Below are positions 50,676 to 59,334 of a stretch of 64,000 bases of DNA, piece after piece. The notes below the pieces were generated by a model, which was not told where the DNA came from, searched no databases, and was given only the letters and a program-made list of their open reading frames with translations. Made by a program: the position numbers and the translations under genes. Origin of the DNA: Sphingomonas qomolangmaensis. Lineage in GTDB: Bacteria > Pseudomonadota > Alphaproteobacteria > Sphingomonadales > Sphingomonadaceae. The stretch spans positions 620,001 through 684,000 of the forward strand of contig NZ_CP101740.1 in assembly GCF_024496245.1 (NCBI RefSeq), given 5' to 3'. The first letter of the stretch is position 1. The number at the start of each line of letters is the position of its first letter.

Positions 50676-51398
50676 TTACGCGGCGCGTTTCAGGCGGCGG
50701 TGCAGATAGTTTGCGTCGAACCCGGCGATCCGCGCGAGCTTGGCGGGGTCGAGGATCGTCAGCGAACCCGATCGCAGATCCATCACTTCGGCCTGGCGCA
50801 GCGCTTGGAGCACGCGGTTGACGTGGACCGGGGTGAGGCCGACCGCGTCGGCGAGCACCACCTGGGTCAGCGGCATCTCGCACTGATTGTCGGTCGCGAG
50901 CCCGATATTGTGCATGCGGATGTACAGCTCGCACATCAGATGCGCGACGCGCTCCTGCGCCTTGCGGCGTCCCATGCTGACGATCCACGCACGAAGCACG
51001 CCCTGATCGACCAGCTGTGACCACCAGAAGGCGCGGGTGATCGCGGGGCGCGCTTCTACCAGCGCCTCCATCTGCTGGCGCGGGAGCGAGGCGACCTTGG
51101 CCTTGGTCAGCGTCACGATGCTGTGGTCCATCGCCTCGAGCACCGCGATGTGGATGTCGCAGAAATCGCCCGGCAGCATGAACGCCATGATCTGGCGCCC
51201 GCCATCGGGCAGGATCTTGTACCGCGCCGCCCAGCCTTCGAGCATCACGAACACCGGATCGGGACGATCGCCTTCGCGGATCAAATGATGGCCCGCGCGA
51301 TGGCCGCGGATGCTGTGGCAGGCTGCAGTCAGCAATCGGACGTCGTCATCGCTGAGCGGGCCGTGGCCGCGCAGACGGTCGGTGAAGGCGTTGGACAT
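50676..51398 (-). CDS. Crp/Fnr family transcriptional regulator (left copy)
   Basis: A 240-residue regulator. The N-terminal cyclic-nucleotide-binding fold covers residues 20-140 (LIREGDRPDPVFVMLEGWAARYKILPDG, PGDFCDIH), and the C-terminal winged helix-turn-helix covers 150-235 (LTQVVLADAVGLTPVHVNRVLQ). It has no Fnr-type Cys cluster. It is clearly paralogous to the regulator at 58603-59334 (shared WIVSMGRR, ERVAHLMCELY, GFD-NYLHRRL). GGAGGGAG precedes the ATG. It is divergent from the small helical protein gene, with 168 bases between them. Confidence 0.92.
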   Translation of the reverse strand: MSNAFTDRLRGHGPLSDDDVRLLTAACHSIRGHRAGHHLIREGDRPDPVFVMLEGWAARYKILPDGGRQIMAFMLPGDFCDIHIAVLEAMDHSIVTLTKAKVASLPRQQMEALVEARPAITRAFWWSQLVDQGVLRAWIVSMGRRKAQERVAHLMCELYIRMHNIGLATDNQCEMPLTQVVLADAVGLTPVHVNRVLQALRQAEVMDLRSGSLTILDPAKLARIAGFDANYLHRRLKRAA

Positions 51399-51566
51399 TG
51401 TGTGCTCCCTCCGACGAGGTATCCGATGACCGCATGCTAACACTAACCTCGATTATGTTTCCTATCCAAAAGTGGTGCATTATCGTGGTATTGCCGGCAA
51501 CCAGACCCAGGCGCCGGCGGCCGGGAGATGCGTATCGCTCTCGCCTGACCTTCGATCGACCGTGTC

Positions 51567-51845
51567 ATGGACGATATCAACCGCGATGCCTTCCTCCCGG
51601 TGGTTCCCGGCGCGGCCGAACCCGACGCGCACGGCCAAGCCGCGCTGTTGCTGGTCGAAAGCATGCTGCACGCGCTGGTCGAAGCGCGGGTCTTTACGCT
51701 GGGGGCCGCGCTAGAGGTCGTCGAGACGACCTGCGAAGTGAAGATGGAAGTCGCGGAGCTAGCGGGTGAATCCAAGGCCAGGATGCAGGAATCGCTCGAC
51801 CTGTTGAACGCGATTTATGTCAGCCTTGCCGCCGATGCCCAATAG
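51567..51845 (+). CDS. Small helical protein paired with Crp regulator (left copy)
   Basis: A 92-residue soluble, acidic, helix-rich protein of no known family. The core PDAHGQAALLLVESMLHALVE is shared almost residue for residue with the protein at 58144-58431, then V-T and an acidic amphipathic C-terminal helix. Both copies lie divergently ~170 bases from a Crp/Fnr regulator. Whether it is regulated by, or regulates, that protein is unknown. Confidence 0.72.
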   Translation: MDDINRDAFLPVVPGAAEPDAHGQAALLLVESMLHALVEARVFTLGAALEVVETTCEVKMEVAELAGESKARMQESLDLLNAIYVSLAADAQ

Positions 51846-51939
51846 GCCGCATCTTTCTGAGCGGGTGGCTCGCATCGCTGCGGGAGCTGGCTTCGGCATC
51901 CGCCGTCGTTGCGTAACGAACGAGCAAAAGGGACCCGCC

Positions 51940-52362
51940 TTGATCACCGAATTGCCCGAAGCCTATGCGTGGAAACCCGAACATCTTCGGCTGGCGGTCG
52001 ATGCCGCCGGCGTCGCGCTGTGGGCGTGGAATGTCGAGACCGACCTGCTGACGATGGACCGGCGCGGCTTCGACCTATGGGGGCTCGAATGGAGCAACGA
52101 GGTCGATTTCGAAACGCTGTCGGCGCGAATCCACCCCGCCGATCGCGACCGGGTCCGCGCTGCCTTCGCCGCCACCCGCGCGATCCTGGGTGCCTATGAG
52201 ACCGATTTCCGGATCCTGATCGACGGCGAGGTGCGCTGGATCGCTGCGCGCGGCGAAGGCGCAGATGTCGGCATCGTAGGCCGAACGATGTTCGGGATCT
52301 TCGTCGACGTCACCGGCCGCAAACAAGCCGAGGAGGGGCACGAATTGCTCGCGGGGAGATGA
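51940..52362 (+). pseudogene. PAS-domain half of a probable frameshifted HWE histidine kinase
   Basis: About 140 residues. A PAS fold (LRLAVDAAGVALWAWNVETDLLTM, FETLSARIHPADRDRVRAAFAA, FVDVTGRKQAEE) ends in GHELLAGR and a stop. In this kinase family the text continues LLAGEMSHRVKNLL. Adding one G to the GGGG run at 52353-52356 restores exactly that, joining the frame to the next gene. The start is taken as TTG 51940, with AAAGGGA upstream; an ATG at 51817 would overlap the preceding gene. It may alternatively be a separate sensor with a 4-base overlap to the kinase. Confidence 0.7.
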
Positions 52363-52940
52363 GCCACCGCGTCAAGAACTTGCTGACGATCGCGTCGGGG
52401 CTGACCGCGATCGCGTCGCGTTCGGCAAGCTGCAAGCAGGACATGGCACGCGAACTCACCGGTCGGCTGTCGGCGCTCGGTCGTGCGCATGATCTGGTCC
52501 GGCCGCTGCCATCGCGGCAGGGGGAAGCGGCGCTGCTGGGCGATCTGCTGTCGATATTGCTGGCGCCCTATGACGAGTTCGGCGCCTTCAAGGGCTGGTT
52601 TCGCGTCGCGGTCGAGCGGATCGGCGTCGGCGAGAACGCTGCAACCGGCGTCGCGCTGGTGGTGCACGAACTGGCGACGAATTCGATGAAATATGGCTCG
52701 CTGTCGGCGCCGACCGGCACGCTCGATCTTTCGAGCGAATCCGACGGCGACGATATCGTGCTGACCTGGGTCGAGCGCGGCGGGCCCCCCGTCGTCGAAC
52801 CCGACGCCCCCGACGGGTTCGGCAGCCTGTTAATAAGGCGCAGCGTCAACCGCCAGTTGGGCGGGACGATCGATTATGACTGGTCGGCGCAAGGCCTGAT
52901 CGTGACGCTGCGGATCAGCCGCGCGCATCTGGCAATTTGA
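52359..52940 (+). CDS. HWE/HisKA_2 histidine kinase catalytic half
   Basis: A 193-codon frame beginning ATGA over the PAS stop. The phosphoacceptor His is H3 in MSHRVKNLL. The ATPase has N-box HELATNSMKYG and the HWE-type tryptophan segment LTWVERGGP, then GFGSLLIRRSVNRQLGG. It starts right at the dimerisation helix, so it would lack any sensor if translated alone. It is most likely the second half of one gene with the PAS half. The output could be the adjacent receiver-GAF protein. Confidence 0.82.
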   Translation: MSHRVKNLLTIASGLTAIASRSASCKQDMARELTGRLSALGRAHDLVRPLPSRQGEAALLGDLLSILLAPYDEFGAFKGWFRVAVERIGVGENAATGVALVVHELATNSMKYGSLSAPTGTLDLSSESDGDDIVLTWVERGGPPVVEPDAPDGFGSLLIRRSVNRQLGGTIDYDWSAQGLIVTLRISRAHLAI

Positions 52941-53073
52941 ACGCTGGGCTTTCGAAACGCCGCCCCGGCGATCGCCCGACGTAACGGATCGGTAAGGGAA
53001 TTGTCATAACAAGCGTTTATAACATTGGTGGCTTTGTGCAGCGCCTCGCCGATGTGAGTTAGGGTAAGGCGTA

Positions 53074-54060
53074 ATGCAGGCTTGTTCGCGGCGCGTAAGA
53101 CGGGTCGTCATCGTCGACGATTCCCGAACGATTCAAACCATGCTGGAAACGGCGTTCGAGGAGTCGCCCGATTTCCAGGTCGTCGGCGTAGCGAGCGACG
53201 CGCAGACGGCCTATGATCTGATATGCCGGGTCGGACCCGACCTGATCACGATCGATCTGTGTATGCCGTATATCGACGGCGCGGCGTTGCTGAAGATGCT
53301 CGAGAAGGTGCGCGGCACGAAGATCATCGTGTCGGACCAGCTCGCCAAAAGCGTGCTGATGCAGTCGAGATTAGAAGCGCTGGGCGCCTCGGCATGCTTC
53401 GGCACGCGCGAGGTGATCGACGATCGGCGCGGATTTTTCACCAAGCTCCACGCAGTCTGCGATCGCGCCGAGGCATTCCGCCAGGCGCAGCAGCGGGTCG
53501 CTATCCAGGCCCCGACCAATATGGACGCCGCATCGGTCGCGACCGCGGCTTCTGCGGGACCGGCGCCGGGCTTCCCTGTTCCACGCGACGAAGCCGCTCG
53601 ACTTGCGATCCTTCACCGCAAACAGCTCGCGAACGCCACCGCCGAGCGCCAGTTCGATTTGATCACGCGCTATGTCGCCGAAATTCTGGGCTTCCCGGTG
53701 TGCCTGATCACCTTTATCGATCGCGACACCCAGTGGCTCAAATCGGCCTATGGTTTCCAAGAATTGCACATGCCGCGATGCGATGCCTTTTGTAATTATA
53801 CGATCGTTCAGGACGGCACCTTCATCGTCACCAACGCTGCCAATGACCGACGCTTTGCGCAAACTCGTTTGGTGGTGGGTGAACCCTTTGTCCGTACCTA
53901 TGTCGGCCATCCGATCACGCTTCGCGACGGGACGCGGATCGGGGCGCTGTGCGTGCTCGATACCAGGCAACGCTATATTGGCAAGCCGATCCCCACCACG
54001 CTTGCCTACATGGCCGACATCATTTCGGAGATGGTGGAAACCAGACCCGTGGCGGCCTGA
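53074..54060 (+). CDS. Receiver-GAF two-domain signalling protein
   Basis: A 328-residue protein. The N-terminal CheB-like receiver (residues 10-130) has acidic pocket D15-D16 and phosphoacceptor D61 in ITIDLCMP. The conserved lysine after beta-5, usually in a KP pair, is not visible (GASACFGTREV). A linker rich in Ala precedes a C-terminal GAF domain (about 175-320: ITRYVAEILGFPVCLITFIDRDTQWLKSAYGF, cut by normal spacing). It is likely the partner of the HWE kinase. AAGG precedes the ATG. Confidence 0.85.
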   Translation: MQACSRRVRRVVIVDDSRTIQTMLETAFEESPDFQVVGVASDAQTAYDLICRVGPDLITIDLCMPYIDGAALLKMLEKVRGTKIIVSDQLAKSVLMQSRLEALGASACFGTREVIDDRRGFFTKLHAVCDRAEAFRQAQQRVAIQAPTNMDAASVATAASAGPAPGFPVPRDEAARLAILHRKQLANATAERQFDLITRYVAEILGFPVCLITFIDRDTQWLKSAYGFQELHMPRCDAFCNYTIVQDGTFIVTNAANDRRFAQTRLVVGEPFVRTYVGHPITLRDGTRIGALCVLDTRQRYIGKPIPTTLAYMADIISEMVETRPVAA

Positions 54061-54129
54061 ACGTGATATCATGCAGCCGCGCATGAACGACCAATCCTAT
54101 CCCGCCATAGCCGACGAACGTTCGCCCCG

Positions 54130-56220
54130 ATGACGATCCCGCGACCCATGCGATTTTCGATCGCCGCGCGCGTAACCGTCGCGGCGGCAGCGATGCTGGC
54201 GTTTCTGCTGTTGTTGCTCGGATTGAGCATCGACGTCGGCCGGCAAGTCCAGGCGGCCGACCGGCAGATCAGCGCGCTGACCGGACTGCTCAAGGATCAG
54301 GAGGATACCGATCGCGCGCAGCGCGCACTGCGGCTTGCGATCGGCGAAGCGACCCGCAGCGCCGAAGATGGCGATGCGGTGTCCGCCGAACGCTGGGGAG
54401 CGCTGCGCGCGCAGCTGCAGCGCTTCCGCGCCAAGTCGGTTCGGTCGCGTGCGCTGCTCGACAGCGCCGAGATCGGCCTGGTGCGCGAGCATATCGAGGT
54501 CGATCTGGCGTCGGCGCGCGATTTCGTGAGCGTCGCGGCGAAGCTGCTGATGGTGGCAGAGGATCGACCCGATGCCGTGACGACGGTGATGCCCGACTTC
54601 CTTCGCACGCTCCGCGCGCTCGAAGCGCGGCGCACCGCGACCCGCGACGTGCTGGTCCGCGAAATCGATGTGGCGGTACAGAAGAGCATCGTCAGCAGCC
54701 GGCGTAGCACGCTGCGGCTGGTGGTCGGCGCGATCGTCGCGCTCTTGATCCTGATCGTGTTGGTGCTGTGGATCCGCCGCAGCGTCATCAAGCCGATGGT
54801 CGAGATCGCCAAGGGGCTTCGTCACCCCGGCTTCGACCGGATCGCGACCGCGTGCCCCCCCTTCGTCGATCGCAGCGACGAGGTGGGCGACCTGGCGCGC
54901 GGGTTGCTCGAATATCGCCTGAACGTGGGTGAACAGGAAAAGGCACGGCGCCAGATCGATTTCCTGGCGCATCACGACGCGCTGACGGGGCTTCCCAACC
55001 GGCTGGTGTTCGAAAGCCGGCTGCGGCAGGAATTGCGGCGTACCGGTCGCACCGCCGACAGCGTCGCGGTTTTCGCGATCGACCTCGACGATTTCAAGGC
55101 GATCAATGACCGACTGGGGCATGCCGGCGGCGACGAAGCGCTGCGGCGCGCGGGCAAGATGCTGGTCGAATGTGCGCGCGCCGACGATCTGGTCGCGCGG
55201 ATCGGCGGCGACGAGTTCGCGGTGATCCAGGTGGCCGCCGATCAGCCCGCCGCGGCACAGGCATTGTTGGCGCGGCTGTTCAAGGCCACCGAAAACCAGA
55301 CCGACAATCTTTCGGTGCGCATGAGCATCGGCGTCGCGATCGCGCGCGGCGAACAGGATGTCGAAGAGCTCTACAACCACGCCGACGTCGCATTGTACCG
55401 CGCCAAGGCCGACGGGCGTAACACCGCGCGGTTTTTCGACGAGGGGATGGAGGCGGAAACGCGGTTGCGCCGCCGCCTTTCGCGCGACCTGCAGGGTGCG
55501 GCGCAGGCAGGGCAGTTCCACATCTGCTACCAACCGATCGCGGCCTGCGATACGCTCGAAGTCATCGGGTACGAGGCGCTGCTTCGCTGGCGGCACCCCG
55601 ACCTCGGCGATGTCGCGCCGAGCGTCTTCATCCCGATCGCCGAATCGACCGGCAGCATCGACAATATCGGTCGCTGGATGGCGGGCGAAGCGCTCGCGGA
55701 GGCGGCGCGGTGGCGTCCCGACCTCACGCTTGCGCTGAACCTTTCACCGGTCCAGTTCCGCCAGCCCGACCTGGCCGACGCGCTGTATGCGCTTGCGGGG
55801 CAGCACGGCGTCGCGATCGGGCGCGTGCAGTTCGAAGTGACCGAGAACGTCACGCTGCTCGGGCACCAGCGCGACGCGGTGCTGACGTCGCTCAGGCAGC
55901 TGCAGCATTGGGGGGCCAAGGTGGTGATGGACGATTTCGGGACGGGCCACGCGTCGCTGAGCAATTTGCAGGCGTTCGAGTTCGACGGGATGAAGATCGA
56001 CGGCCGCTTCATCGCGGCGATGCTCGACCATCGCTCGTCGGCACTGATCGTGCGCGCGGCGATCGGACTGGGGAAGAGCCTGGGGGTGCCGGTGGTCGCC
56101 GAATGCGTCGAAACCCAGGCGCAGTTCGAACAGCTTTGCGCCTGGGGATGCACGCAGGTGCAGGGTTATCTGTTCGGTCGCCCGGTTTCGGCCGATCAAC
56201 TCACCGCTGCGCGGGGATAG
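54130..56220 (+). CDS. Membrane GGDEF-EAL diguanylate cyclase/phosphodiesterase
   Basis: A 696-residue c-di-GMP enzyme. Two transmembrane helices (about residues 18-38 and 198-216) flank a periplasmic helical sensor. A HAMP-like segment leads to GGDEF (RIGGDEFAVI, about 356-365) with the active-site motif intact. EAL begins around 440 with YEALLRW (E482) and DDFGTGHASLSNL, both catalytic sets present. It could make or degrade c-di-GMP. It converges on the next gene with only 27 bases between them. Confidence 0.93.
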   Translation: MTIPRPMRFSIAARVTVAAAAMLAFLLLLLGLSIDVGRQVQAADRQISALTGLLKDQEDTDRAQRALRLAIGEATRSAEDGDAVSAERWGALRAQLQRFRAKSVRSRALLDSAEIGLVREHIEVDLASARDFVSVAAKLLMVAEDRPDAVTTVMPDFLRTLRALEARRTATRDVLVREIDVAVQKSIVSSRRSTLRLVVGAIVALLILIVLVLWIRRSVIKPMVEIAKGLRHPGFDRIATACPPFVDRSDEVGDLARGLLEYRLNVGEQEKARRQIDFLAHHDALTGLPNRLVFESRLRQELRRTGRTADSVAVFAIDLDDFKAINDRLGHAGGDEALRRAGKMLVECARADDLVARIGGDEFAVIQVAADQPAAAQALLARLFKATENQTDNLSVRMSIGVAIARGEQDVEELYNHADVALYRAKADGRNTARFFDEGMEAETRLRRRLSRDLQGAAQAGQFHICYQPIAACDTLEVIGYEALLRWRHPDLGDVAPSVFIPIAESTGSIDNIGRWMAGEALAEAARWRPDLTLALNLSPVQFRQPDLADALYALAGQHGVAIGRVQFEVTENVTLLGHQRDAVLTSLRQLQHWGAKVVMDDFGTGHASLSNLQAFEFDGMKIDGRFIAAMLDHRSSALIVRAAIGLGKSLGVPVVAECVETQAQFEQLCAWGCTQVQGYLFGRPVSADQLTAARG

Positions 56221-56247
56221 GCTGGCAGGTACCCGCTGACGCAAGGA

Positions 56248-58044
56248 TCAGGCGGCGCGCGCCTGTGCATGGTCGAGCAGCAGCCGCGTGGTCGCGTGGC
56301 GATCGACCGCGCGCGACAACAGATAGCCCTGTCCCAGCTTACAGCCGATCGCGGCGAGATGCTCGGCCTGGCCCTGGGTTTCGACCCCCTCGGCCACCAC
56401 GCGGATGCCGAGCCCCTTGGCGATGCCGATCAGTCCCTGGATGATGATCGCGCTCGCATCGTTCACCGCGAGCCGATCGACGAAGCTCTTGTCGATCTTG
56501 ATGATGTCGACCGGCACGCTCAGCAGATGCGTCAGCGAGGCATAGCCGGTACCGAAATCGTCGAGCGCGACCTTGAGCCCCTCGGCGCGAAGGACCTCGA
56601 TCGACTTTTGCACGAAGTCGTCGTCATCGTTCATGTAGACCGTCTCGGTCACCTCCAGAATGATGTGGCTGAGCGGTACGCGGTAGCGGTCGAAGGCGGT
56701 GCTGATCAGTTGCGCCAAGCCGCCGCTGTGCATGTCGGCCGACGACACGTTGATCCCGACATGCTGGAACGGAATGCCAAGGTCGAGCCACGACCGTACA
56801 TCCTTGGCGACGATATCCACCATCCGCGCGGTCAACGCCGCTGAAATATGGGCGTCCTTGGTCGCTTCCTGAAAGCTGGCGGCCGAAACGATCTCGTTGC
56901 CGATCCGCATCCGGCAAAGCGCTTCGAGCCCGACCACCTCGCGGGTCCCCAGCAGGAAGATCGGCTGGTAGAACGCATCGATACGGCCTTCGCGAAGCGC
57001 CAAATCGACGTCCTTGAGATGGCCCAGCCGGCGATTCATCTGGGTGCCCAGACCCGGCCAGTAGCGGACAAAGCCGCCGCGGCCCGTTTCCTTGGCGTGG
57101 TAGAGCGCGAAGGCGGCGTTCTGGCGGACGCGTTCTGCGGCAGGTTCGTCGATCGACAGCGCCGCGCCGCCGATCGTGGCGCGCGGAACGACGGTGTCGT
57201 CGCCGCATTCGGTAGGCTGCGAGATCGCCGACAAGATCCGCTCGGCGGTCTGCTCGAGGTCGTACAGCAGCGCAGGCGACCGAAGCAGGACGACGAACTC
57301 GTCGCCGCCGATCCGGAAGATCGGCTCGGAGGTGACCGCGAGCGACACGCGTTCGGCGACGATCTTGAGCAAATGGTCGCCGGTGCGATTCCCGAAGGTG
57401 TCGTTCACGATCTTGAGGTTGTCGACATCGACCATCAGGATCGCCCAGCTTCCGGGATCATCGACCGGCAATTCAGCGAGCGCGGCTTCGAACGCCAGCC
57501 GGTTGGGCATCCCGGTAAGCTCGTCGACCAACGTCCGCCTTTGCTGTTCTTCGCTTCGGCGGTGACGATCGAGCGTGATCTGGCAGATCTGCAAGACCTG
57601 GCGGACGATCCGGCGCTCGGCTGCGCTCGGGCCGCGGGGCTGCTTGAAGTAGAAGGCGAACACCCCCACCGGCATCCCCGATGCGCCCAGGATCGGGCTC
57701 GACCAGCAGGCGCGAAGCCCCAGCGGCAGCACCAGATGCTTGTGCTGCGCCCAGCATGCGTCGTGTTCGATATCGGTGACGACCACTTCCTGTCGCCAAT
57801 ATACCGCAGAGCCGCAGCATCCCGAATCGGGGCCTATCGCTAGCCCGTCGAGCGCCGCCGCCAAGCAGGGGGGAAGGCCTGGCGCCGCCAATGGGCGAAG
57901 CAAGCCGAGCGGATCGATCGAAAGGATCGAGCATATCGCGCCAGGAGACGCCTTTTCGGCCTCGATACACAGGCGCGACAAGATGGCGTCCAGCGGCTCG
58001 TCCGCGGCCAGCATGCCGAGTATGATGTCCTGTACCTTCAGCAT
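56248..58044 (-). CDS. GAF-GGDEF-EAL protein
   Basis: A 598-residue cytosolic c-di-GMP enzyme. The GAF domain (residues 1-165) contains CCGSAVYWRQ and LGLRACWSSPI. GGDEF (about 175-330) has an intact RIGGDEFVVL, and EAL (about 345-590) has LEALCRM and DDFGTGYASLTHLL. All signature residues seem present, so both activities are possible. It converges with the previous gene and points away from the right-hand small protein gene. Confidence 0.93.
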   Translation of the reverse strand: MLKVQDIILGMLAADEPLDAILSRLCIEAEKASPGAICSILSIDPLGLLRPLAAPGLPPCLAAALDGLAIGPDSGCCGSAVYWRQEVVVTDIEHDACWAQHKHLVLPLGLRACWSSPILGASGMPVGVFAFYFKQPRGPSAAERRIVRQVLQICQITLDRHRRSEEQQRRTLVDELTGMPNRLAFEAALAELPVDDPGSWAILMVDVDNLKIVNDTFGNRTGDHLLKIVAERVSLAVTSEPIFRIGGDEFVVLLRSPALLYDLEQTAERILSAISQPTECGDDTVVPRATIGGAALSIDEPAAERVRQNAAFALYHAKETGRGGFVRYWPGLGTQMNRRLGHLKDVDLALREGRIDAFYQPIFLLGTREVVGLEALCRMRIGNEIVSAASFQEATKDAHISAALTARMVDIVAKDVRSWLDLGIPFQHVGINVSSADMHSGGLAQLISTAFDRYRVPLSHIILEVTETVYMNDDDDFVQKSIEVLRAEGLKVALDDFGTGYASLTHLLSVPVDIIKIDKSFVDRLAVNDASAIIIQGLIGIAKGLGIRVVAEGVETQGQAEHLAAIGCKLGQGYLLSRAVDRHATTRLLLDHAQARAA

Positions 58045-58143
58045 ACTGCACCGCGGCGCCGGGCCGGGGAAGCCGAGAGGAGCGCAGCGCCGGACGCTGC
58101 AGCAAGGGCGTAGCGGGTGGCCGTCAGTGACATGCCGAAGAAC

Positions 58144-58431
58144 TCAGCGCCGCTCATCGTCGTCGAGATCATGTTCGAGCGAGGACGCGATCGATGACAG
58201 CAGCGCCTGCGATCGCCACATCTCGCGCGCATCGTTCGATGCTTCGGCGATGTCGGTCTGCACGTCGATCGCCCGATCGACGATGGCGACGCTGTCGCTG
58301 GTGGTCAGGACGGTTTGTTCGATCAGACCGTGGATCAGGCTTTCGACCAGTATCAGCGCGGCTTGGCCATGGGCATCGGGCGTCGCGGGCGGGGTAATCG
58401 AAACGATCGGGGTATTGTCGTTTTCAGGCAT
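58144..58431 (-). CDS. Small helical protein paired with Crp regulator (right copy)
   Basis: A 95-residue acidic helical protein, paralogous to the one at 51567-51845: PDAHGQAALILVESLIHGLIE aligns without gaps, then V-T and an acidic helix ending DLDDDERR. AAAGG lies upstream of the ATG at 58431. It is divergent from the Crp-type regulator at 58603 with 171 bases between. Function unknown. Confidence 0.72.
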   Translation of the reverse strand: MPENDNTPIVSITPPATPDAHGQAALILVESLIHGLIEQTVLTTSDSVAIVDRAIDVQTDIAEASNDAREMWRSQALLSSIASSLEHDLDDDERR

Positions 58432-58602
58432 GCATCGACCTTTTACAAACATGGGCATCGAACGCGCCCGTTGTCCGATTGCCCTGGCGCACATTTGCAG
58501 CGTTGATATGCCCCGTCCCGACACCCTGCCACAACTTAGCTTAACAACGGACTATAACACGGATCAATGTCCTAAAATGTTAAATGGGTGTAGTGCAGTG
58601 AT

Positions 58603-59334
58603 ATGGGCAATCGGTTCGTACAAAAATTGCGTGAACTCAGTGCCCTAAGCACCGACGACATTGCTGCATTGGAGTCTGCGACTTCGCGTACGCGAACCTT
58701 TGTCGCGCGGCAGGACTTGATCCGCGAAGGCGATGAGCCGGGGCCCGTGTTCGTCATCCTCGAAGGGTGGGCGTGTCGGTACAAGATCCTGCCATCGGGT
58801 GCGCGGCAGATCATGGCGTTCATGATACCCGGCGATTCCTGCGACTTGCACGTCAATCTGTTGCCCGAAATGGATCATAGCATCCAGGCGATCACCACCG
58901 CGACGGTCGCGACGATCCCGAAAGCGACGATGCAATCGCTCATGGCCGACCACCCGGCGATCGCGCGCGCGATGTACACCGCGCAATTGATCGACGAGAG
59001 CATCATGCGATCGTGGATCGTCAGCATGGGGCGACGCAGCAGCATCGAGCGAGTCGCGCACCTGATGTGCGAGCTGTACCTACGCGCCTACAGCATCGGG
59101 CTGGTGACCGATGGCGAAGTGGCGCTGCCACTATCGCAGCTGGTGCTGGCCGATGCGCTCGGAATGACCTCGGTGCATATCAATCGCGTGTTGAAGGAGC
59201 TGCGCCTCGCGGGAGCAATGGCGCTCCGGCGCGGCAGTCTCGACATCATCGATCCGGTGAAGCTGATCCAGATCGCGGGCTTCGACGAAAACTACCTGCA
59301 CCGCCGGCTGCGCACCGGGTCCGACCGCCACTAA
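58603..59334 (+). CDS. Crp/Fnr family transcriptional regulator (right copy)
   Basis: A 243-residue regulator, paralogue of the left copy: a cNMP-binding fold (LIREGDEPGPVFVILEGWACRYKILPSG, PGDSCDLH) and a winged HTH (LSQLVLADALGMTSVHINRVLKEL). It also lacks an Fnr-type Cys cluster. The ATG at 58603 begins MGNRFVQKL. The divergent small-protein gene shares the intergenic region, which is AT-rich for this genome and holds the imperfect palindrome GGAC-n16-GTCC near 58550. Confidence 0.92.
   Translation: MGNRFVQKLRELSALSTDDIAALESATSRTRTFVARQDLIREGDEPGPVFVILEGWACRYKILPSGARQIMAFMIPGDSCDLHVNLLPEMDHSIQAITTATVATIPKATMQSLMADHPAIARAMYTAQLIDESIMRSWIVSMGRRSSIERVAHLMCELYLRAYSIGLVTDGEVALPLSQLVLADALGMTSVHINRVLKELRLAGAMALRRGSLDIIDPVKLIQIAGFDENYLHRRLRTGSDRH

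Follow-up and report, generated by a model that had tools for sequence, protein, structure and literature searches.

The window, the 64,000-nucleotide (nt) stretch analysed here, corresponds to positions 620001-684000 of the genome of Sphingomonas qomolangmaensis (G000; one contig, NZ_CP101740.1, 3.43 Mb). Between positions 50676 and 59334 it carries a signalling island bounded at each end by a divergent pair of genes for a Crp/Fnr-type regulator (Crp-L, Crp-R) and a small protein of about 95 amino acids (aa; small-L, small-R), and small-L is preceded by a candidate RNA leader. The mirrored arrangement of these pairs, described in an earlier note made from the sequence, is borne out by the open reading frames (ORFs) and their translations, and the start-to-start gaps are 168 nt on the left and 171 nt on the right, as claimed. 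Pfam also supports the receiver-GAF protein and the two GGDEF-EAL proteins named in that note as interior genes, whereas the HWE kinase, taken there for one gene, lies in two overlapping frames. The genes of the island are listed below.

50676..51398, minus strand: Crp-L, Crp/Fnr-type regulator of the left-type clade, 240 aa counted from its ATG
51567..51845, plus strand: small-L, 92-aa predicted three-helix protein without Pfam or NCBIfam match
51937..52362, plus strand: PAS part of a split PAS-HWE kinase, start codon uncertain (ORF list, Pfam)
52359..52940, plus strand: HWE histidine kinase part (ORF list, Pfam HWE_HK)
53074..54060, plus strand: receiver-GAF protein (Pfam Response_reg and GAF)
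54130..56220, plus strand: GGDEF-EAL protein (Pfam)
56248..58044, minus strand: GAF-GGDEF-EAL protein (Pfam)
58144..58431, minus strand: small-R, 95-aa paralogue of small-L, no RNA element match upstream
58603..59334, plus strand: Crp-R, Crp/Fnr-type regulator of the right-type clade, 243 aa

Divergent units of Crp regulators and small proteins

Both Crps belong to the Crp/Fnr group, with Pfam matches to cNMP_binding (PF00027) and HTH_Crp_2 (PF13545) of 55.3 and 58 bits (P0001) and 47.8 and 48.5 bits (P0004) at cut-offs of 27.5 and 27. They resemble FNR/FixK-type regulators in the combination of a cyclic-nucleotide-binding (cNMP) fold with a helix-turn-helix domain, in their best NCBIfam matches (FnrL and FixK), and in the closest solved chains by sequence, the FNR-type regulator 9qmc and FixK2 (4i2o). 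However, they score far below the NCBIfam cut-offs, with 82.4 bits (P0001) and 69.2 bits (P0004) against the 300 bits set for Fnr (NF008365), FnrL (NF045989), and FixK (NF050806), and were assigned to none of the three. Residues of the pattern GD-x-CD-x-H ... MDH are invariant in five aligned Crp members.

The small proteins (P0002, P0003) matched nothing in Pfam or NCBIfam at E<=0.01. Three helices, at residues 21-39, 45-66, and 70-89, are predicted to form a bundle, and a fold search with the small protein returned no specific or telling match in the PDB. At least 2244 homologues were found at E<=0.001 among 7989 scored candidates from a large protein set. The source genome holds four copies of the gene, which is present in 17 of 151 Sphingomonas genomes and in four of 59 genomes of the family (one per genus), three of them from other genera (G001, G029, and G057); a class-wide scan of 142 genomes detected the protein only in G000 and its close relative G068. 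In Sphingomonas solaris (L016, 9950-10579), the small gene enters transposon-like frames past residue ~75 and its leader is decayed. At L006 (6958-7616) and L055, the small ORF overlaps a single-receiver ORF, with a hybrid histidine kinase adjoining, an RNA leader present, and no Crp found nearby.

Pairing with Crp was surveyed for 34 small-gene copies in 31 loci. A divergent Crp gene lies beside 25 of them, with gaps of 166-184 nt in 24 cases and of 382 nt at L005; start codons were picked by rule, and an individual gap could be off by a few codons. A profile (A2) made from five Crps located within or next to small-gene loci detected the clade, at a cut-off of E<=1e-100, in 14 of the 151 Sphingomonas genomes, all among the 17 that bear the small gene. 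Of the 22 clade Crps in these 14 genomes, 19 lie no more than 400 bp from a divergent small gene. Across 20 small-bearing genomes, 24 of 31 Crps scoring at least 368 bits are paired in this way, as against, by coordinates, none of the 17 lower-scoring Crps. Furthermore, distances between Crps and between their small proteins are correlated (r=0.67, 0 of 5000 permutations, 24 pairs), a value that still includes the shared ancestry of the genomes. The earlier note had inferred from the conserved arrangement that the small protein works with the Crp, and had named as contrary outcomes small proteins mostly lacking Crp partners and a duplication unique to this strain. Neither outcome is found in the genomes examined: most of the small genes have a divergent Crp, a pairing present in Sphingomonas as well as in G001, G029, and G057, and double islands also occur in G068 and G029.

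Several observations weigh against a strict partnership: nine small genes have no close Crp (L006, L055, L057, L060, L062, L069, L071, L072, and L074), the Crp at L060 being 1.6 kb away; the small genes of L006 and L055 adjoin a receiver and a hybrid kinase in place of a Crp; and no small gene was found alongside four extra clade Crps of G029. The small genes of L069, L071, L072, and L074 are alike in sequence and lack a divergent partner. Unpaired high-scoring Crps include, besides the four in G029, those of G102, G000:1320188 (the second G000 locus, L005), and G160:1666445. The last adjoins a small-gene remnant that is cut short but retains its leader; a remnant of this kind at L197 (2762-2933) lies next to a Crp identical to the one at G160:1693657.

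The small protein could alternatively be an adaptor of two-component signalling, the Crp acting merely as a local transcription regulator with no physical partnership. Overlap of the small ORF with a single-receiver ORF in L006, L055, L005, and L059, the first two with no Crp found nearby, fits such a role, but neither the correlated divergence nor the presence of the small gene in all 14 genomes with the Crp clade does, and we regard an adaptor as possible yet somewhat improbable. Because of the conserved pairing and the correlated divergence, the small protein is probably a modulator of its Crp, and the unit is a candidate example of a new type of partner for Crp regulators.

The near-equal gaps and identical gene order at the two ends could suggest that, in this lineage, one pair was duplicated in inverted orientation. 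However, Crp-L and Crp-R share 57% identity and fall into separate clades in the tree. Crp-L clusters with sequences from G068, G160, G001, and G000:1320188 (5-row set, 96/96), Crp-R with sequences from G068 and G171 (3-row set, 96/88), and closer kin of each occur as single pairs in other genomes. Islands with both pairs were found in three genomes, namely G000, G068 (L054, with the same gene set), and G029 of another genus (L050), in which both Crps are right-type. A local inverted duplication, rejected on the Crp tree, is thus highly improbable; the two Crps are old paralogues, and the different clades with kin in single pairs elsewhere indicate that two different units were brought together.

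The divergent promoter regions contain conserved DNA blocks that are candidate operator sites:

51443..51462, strand not assigned: DNA block common to left-type loci, CTAACCTCGATTATGTTTCC here, candidate regulator site (by-eye comparison; L052, L054, and L061 similar)
58536..58571, strand not assigned: conserved DNA block of right-type loci, candidate regulator site, 32 nt from the Crp-R start

Of 23 loci compared (the long-gap L005 and L016, which is decayed, were left out), 17, all right-type or near, share a block of about ATTG-N6-TGTTATTGTCCAATGTTGATAT that begins at a distance of 31-33 nt from the start codon of the Crp gene. Its information content is 24.95 bits, against 12.8-13.6 bits in five shuffled sets. 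Left-type loci carry a different, TTAACCTCGATTATG-like block, as judged by eye.

A predicted RNA leader upstream of many small genes

A second conserved part of the divergent regions, adjoining the small gene and overlooked in the earlier note, emerged when these regions were aligned. This ~62-nt leader element precedes 23 of the 34 small genes, including small-L, where its features are as follows:

51477..51485, plus strand: -10-like sequence immediately preceding the RNA element (by-eye reading of upstream regions)
51488..51549, plus strand: predicted RNA pseudoknot leader of small-L (65.6 bits), start codon 17 nt beyond
51491..51497, plus strand: predicted pseudoknot strand A, pairing with 51514-51520 (covariation, columns 4-10 with 28-34)
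51508..51513, plus strand: predicted stem P1 5' strand, pairing with 51542-51547 (covariation, columns 22-27 with 58-64)
51514..51520, plus strand: predicted pseudoknot strand A' (covariation)
51524..51527, plus strand: predicted stem P2 5' strand, pairing with 51538-51541 (covariation, columns 38-41 with 54-57)

The alignment of these 23 leaders (A4), chosen by pattern and by eye upstream of the 34 small genes, has a consensus of roughly ATCGTCGGC - spacer - CAGGCG - CCGGCGGCTG - GAG - loop - CTC - CGCCTG. It comprises the helices P1 (CAGGCG/CGCCUG) and P2 (GAG/CUC), together with A:A', which links the 5' strand to the internal bulge. Left out were the decayed L016, the second copy of L050, L051, the right copies of L054 and of the window, L057, L058, L069, L071, L072, and L074, L072 also lying outside the model scan.

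In A4, 91.8% of the cells pair and eight of 17 pairs are changed on both sides; none of 500 shuffles reached these levels on four of five measures (7 of 500 for pair types), and pairing fell to 35-56% when the partners were slid. The search model R1, containing P1 and P2 only, matched 94 elements from 87 sources at E<=0.01 (A5); these are the better-scoring among the matches listed, and E-values of R1 and R2 are rough. Over the 93 distinct rows of A5, 89.2% of the cells pair, 13 of 18 pairs are doubly changed, and 146 cells are doubly changed against a shuffle mean of 52. On four measures, none of 500 shuffles equalled these values (2 of 500 did so for types), and sliding the partners by 1-3 columns reduced pairing to 36-60%. 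The A:A' pairs, absent from R1, are 94.9% paired in A5, with six of seven doubly changed; A:A' had been spotted by eye before A4 was assembled, and the A5 rows are selected for likeness at its columns because the models retain the sequence of those columns. The many G-U cells in the helices fit RNA rather than DNA. A long hairpin proposed by RNAalifold was also considered, but its pairs covary no better than shuffles, and P1 with the pseudoknot was therefore kept.

Some results detract from this structure. P2 is weaker in A5 (79.8% paired); its outer pair does not form in 67 of the 93 rows, nor does the outermost P1 pair in 35 of them, and the shuffle controls keep the kinship among the sequences. 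The covariation expected of a structured cis-regulatory RNA leader is nevertheless present beyond both shuffled and slid controls, and it supports an H-type RNA pseudoknot.

No Rfam 15 family matched at the element in five copies (window, L102, L104, L114, and L191; E up to 3-5). The window copy has a 10.4-bit match beside the element on the opposite strand, and the L191 copy an overlapping 9.8-bit match to GHRLOS, an unrelated long non-coding RNA with a gathering score of 48, far below threshold. At Rfam gathering scores, nine loci returned tRNAs only. In the L104 stretch, a chrB-a RNA (RF03078, 74.5 bits) lies at 499-575 on the minus strand, within the same 3 kb as the pseudoknot leader. Among the top literature matches listed, no paper dealt with the leader or with a sphingomonad Crp/small-protein system.

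SAM-II and preQ1-II are compact 5' H-type pseudoknot riboswitches near the ribosome-binding site, and the leader resembles them in this design. It differs in that such Rfam models gave no match at the element in the five copies, and in that the genes behind it encode regulators and small proteins and do not make up one metabolic pathway. A similar topology is seen in the odc1 motif RNA, a cis element of Alphaproteobacteria in which a hairpin is combined with a pseudoknot linking the 5' end to the loop; a Sphingomonas echinoides copy of it was tested, and control of translation start was proposed (PMC8632094). The motif is named for ornithine decarboxylase and has two UUG starts, an upstream ORF of 11 aa, and a ribosome-binding site inside P1 (PMC8632094). 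In contrast, the leader has mostly ATG starts, about 14-17 nt past the element, and no decarboxylase was recognised among ten Pfam-scanned downstream proteins, so that it departs from odc1 in genes, start codons, and placement of the ribosome-binding site.

Distribution of the leader and the genes behind it

The leader is far more widespread than the small gene. R1 matches at E<=0.01 occur in 118 of the 151 Sphingomonas genomes, 102 of which lack the small gene, and at 1e-5 in 56 of 151, among the matches listed. R2 matches were found in 22 of the 59 family genomes at E<=1e-3 and in five of the 142 class genomes at E<=1e-4, three of these from other alphaproteobacterial families. Copies in other families were seen at L187 and L189-L191, the P2 loop region being longer in L189-L191. 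The source genome contains three strong copies, at 671488+, 1321788-, and 1847881+, and a fourth, weak copy at 1885988+ (E 0.005), and the ORF after the latter resembles, by eye, a leader-headed gene group. Divergent pairs of the RNA element, about 80-280 nt apart, were observed at L108, L116, L127, L131, L139, and L145.

Downstream of the 94 elements lie 31 genes for a ~57-aa protein (MDLNYL...), 22 for the ~95-aa small family, 10 for Crp regulators outside the paired loci (one Pfam-checked), two for receivers, four, falling into two clusters, for DUF6894-type proteins (two recognised by Pfam), and one for a cold-shock-type protein, besides further small groups and singles; seven elements have no ORF by the rule used. 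Since the model that yielded A5 had been trained on A4, these shares are biased. The ~57-aa family (MDLNYL...RHQVSL), the commonest behind leaders (L098, L102, L104-L107, L109, L111, L113-L115, and others), gave no Pfam or NCBIfam match in the two members scanned.

The position of the leader is nearly constant. Of 87 downstream ORFs, 73 begin 10-19 nt past the element with a peak at 14-17 nt, under a rule that favours starts near 16 nt. By a preference-free rule, an ATG-initiated ORF of at least 40 aa begins 10-20 nt past the element in 69 of 94 cases, whereas random positions within these loci show this in 7.6%; a cis-regulatory RNA leader is expected to be so placed. Its 3' strand is often complementary to the Shine-Dalgarno region (GCUCC/GGAGC). 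Both the start-codon distance and this complementarity to many Shine-Dalgarno sequences suggest that the pseudoknot would act as a translational switch. By eye, -10-like sequences end a few nt 5' of the element, so the fold likely lies at the 5' end of the mRNA. Control of the leaders by EcfG, the general stress sigma factor, was considered and rejected, since a single upstream region of the 94 has the promoter pattern, close to the background frequency.

Other findings weigh on the opposite side. The match between leaders and their own Shine-Dalgarno regions scores 14.64, just slightly more than the 14.15 for swapped partners (standard deviation 0.23; 4 of 200 as high; 101 sequences). No leader was found before small-R or before several other small genes that are paired with a Crp, namely the second copy of L050, L051, the right copy of L054, L058, and the decayed L016. 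Conversely, four small genes without a close Crp carry one (L006, L055, L060, and L062), which indicates that leader and Crp are separable.

The weak anti-Shine-Dalgarno signal, the diversity of downstream genes, which do not form one pathway, and the likely placement of the fold at the mRNA 5' end near -10-like sequences would also suit a constitutive stabiliser or translation enhancer that senses nothing, whether by 5' protection or as a ribosome standby site. However, the unpaired A3 is invariant and C34 and G36 nearly so (window-copy numbering), a stem-like conservation exceeding the need of a stabilising hairpin, and we consider such a role unlikely. Binding of a protein, either a global RNA-binding regulator or a leader-headed small protein acting on its own mRNA, appears equally doubtful. 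It would agree with the two largest downstream groups being small proteins without a Pfam family (31 and 22 of 94), but the leader occurs in 118 genomes of the genus and the ~95-aa protein in 17 of 151, so the latter cannot be the general binder.

The presence of the leader before other small proteins, Crps, and receivers points to one shared signal, probably. In its strongest form, the leader would be an orphan riboswitch of sphingomonads and some other Alphaproteobacteria, sensing a signalling molecule and switching translation across a scattered regulon whose members are small helical proteins, Crp-type regulators, and receivers, with the Crp/small unit as one output; we put this forward tentatively, as a possibility short of likely.

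Interior genes and the proposed regulatory unit

The PAS ORF, ending at 52362, and the HWE ORF, starting at 52359, overlap by ATGA in two frames (52340-52362), and the kinase is a single ORF of 372 aa in the sister genome G068 (L054, 12617-13735). The two frames may reflect a frameshift by true mutation, an assembly error, or translational coupling. In the G029 island, the GAF-GGDEF-EAL gene is broken over three successive frames (L050, 10039-11924).

A general link of the module to cyclic di-GMP (c-di-GMP) and phosphorelay signalling, as previously suggested for this island, is not upheld. In six of 31 loci (window, L016, L050, L054, L062, and L063), two of them orthologous, GGDEF/EAL matches lie 6 kb or less from a small gene; these matches were sought by phmmer with the two island proteins, so that distant ones can escape, and contig ends cut some loci. 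The 3.43-Mb genome holds 20 GGDEF genes, a density at which about two such loci are expected, and the excess is therefore weak at most. c-di-GMP was accordingly dropped as a conserved part of the unit. A strong relative of the receiver-GAF protein recurs in L054 and L062. The recurrence of c-di-GMP cargo is suggestive, not a rule, and the kinase, receiver-GAF, and GGDEF-EAL genes would be local cargo, not obligate to the unit.

The general stress signalling of sphingomonads by PhyR-NepR-EcfG involves small helical regulators, receivers, and HWE kinases, and the island shares these ingredients. It differs in that Pfam recognised no sigma factor or PhyR-type domain in its nine proteins, and an EcfG-like promoter pattern stands upstream of just one of 94 leaders.

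Taken as a proposal from sequence comparison, each end of the island would be a self-contained divergent unit of a Crp from a dedicated clade and a ~95-aa three-helix partner, sharing a promoter region of ~170 nt. The Crp most likely binds the conserved block in this region and controls both genes. In most units, the left one included, the partner mRNA would open with the ~62-nt pseudoknot, ending just before the ribosome-binding site, and the leader would bring one shared signal, a ligand or a protein, to a regulatory set in Sphingomonadaceae. We hold this reading as a whole, with divergent Crp/small units, a pseudoknot translational leader carrying a shared signal, a partner that modulates the Crp, and the other genes as cargo, to be about evenly balanced between right and wrong.

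A structured leader matched in most of the Sphingomonas genomes examined, and matching neither Rfam nor the literature listed, would define a post-transcriptional regulon in a large group of environmental bacteria, and may offer a direct handle on many small proteins that lack an assigned function.

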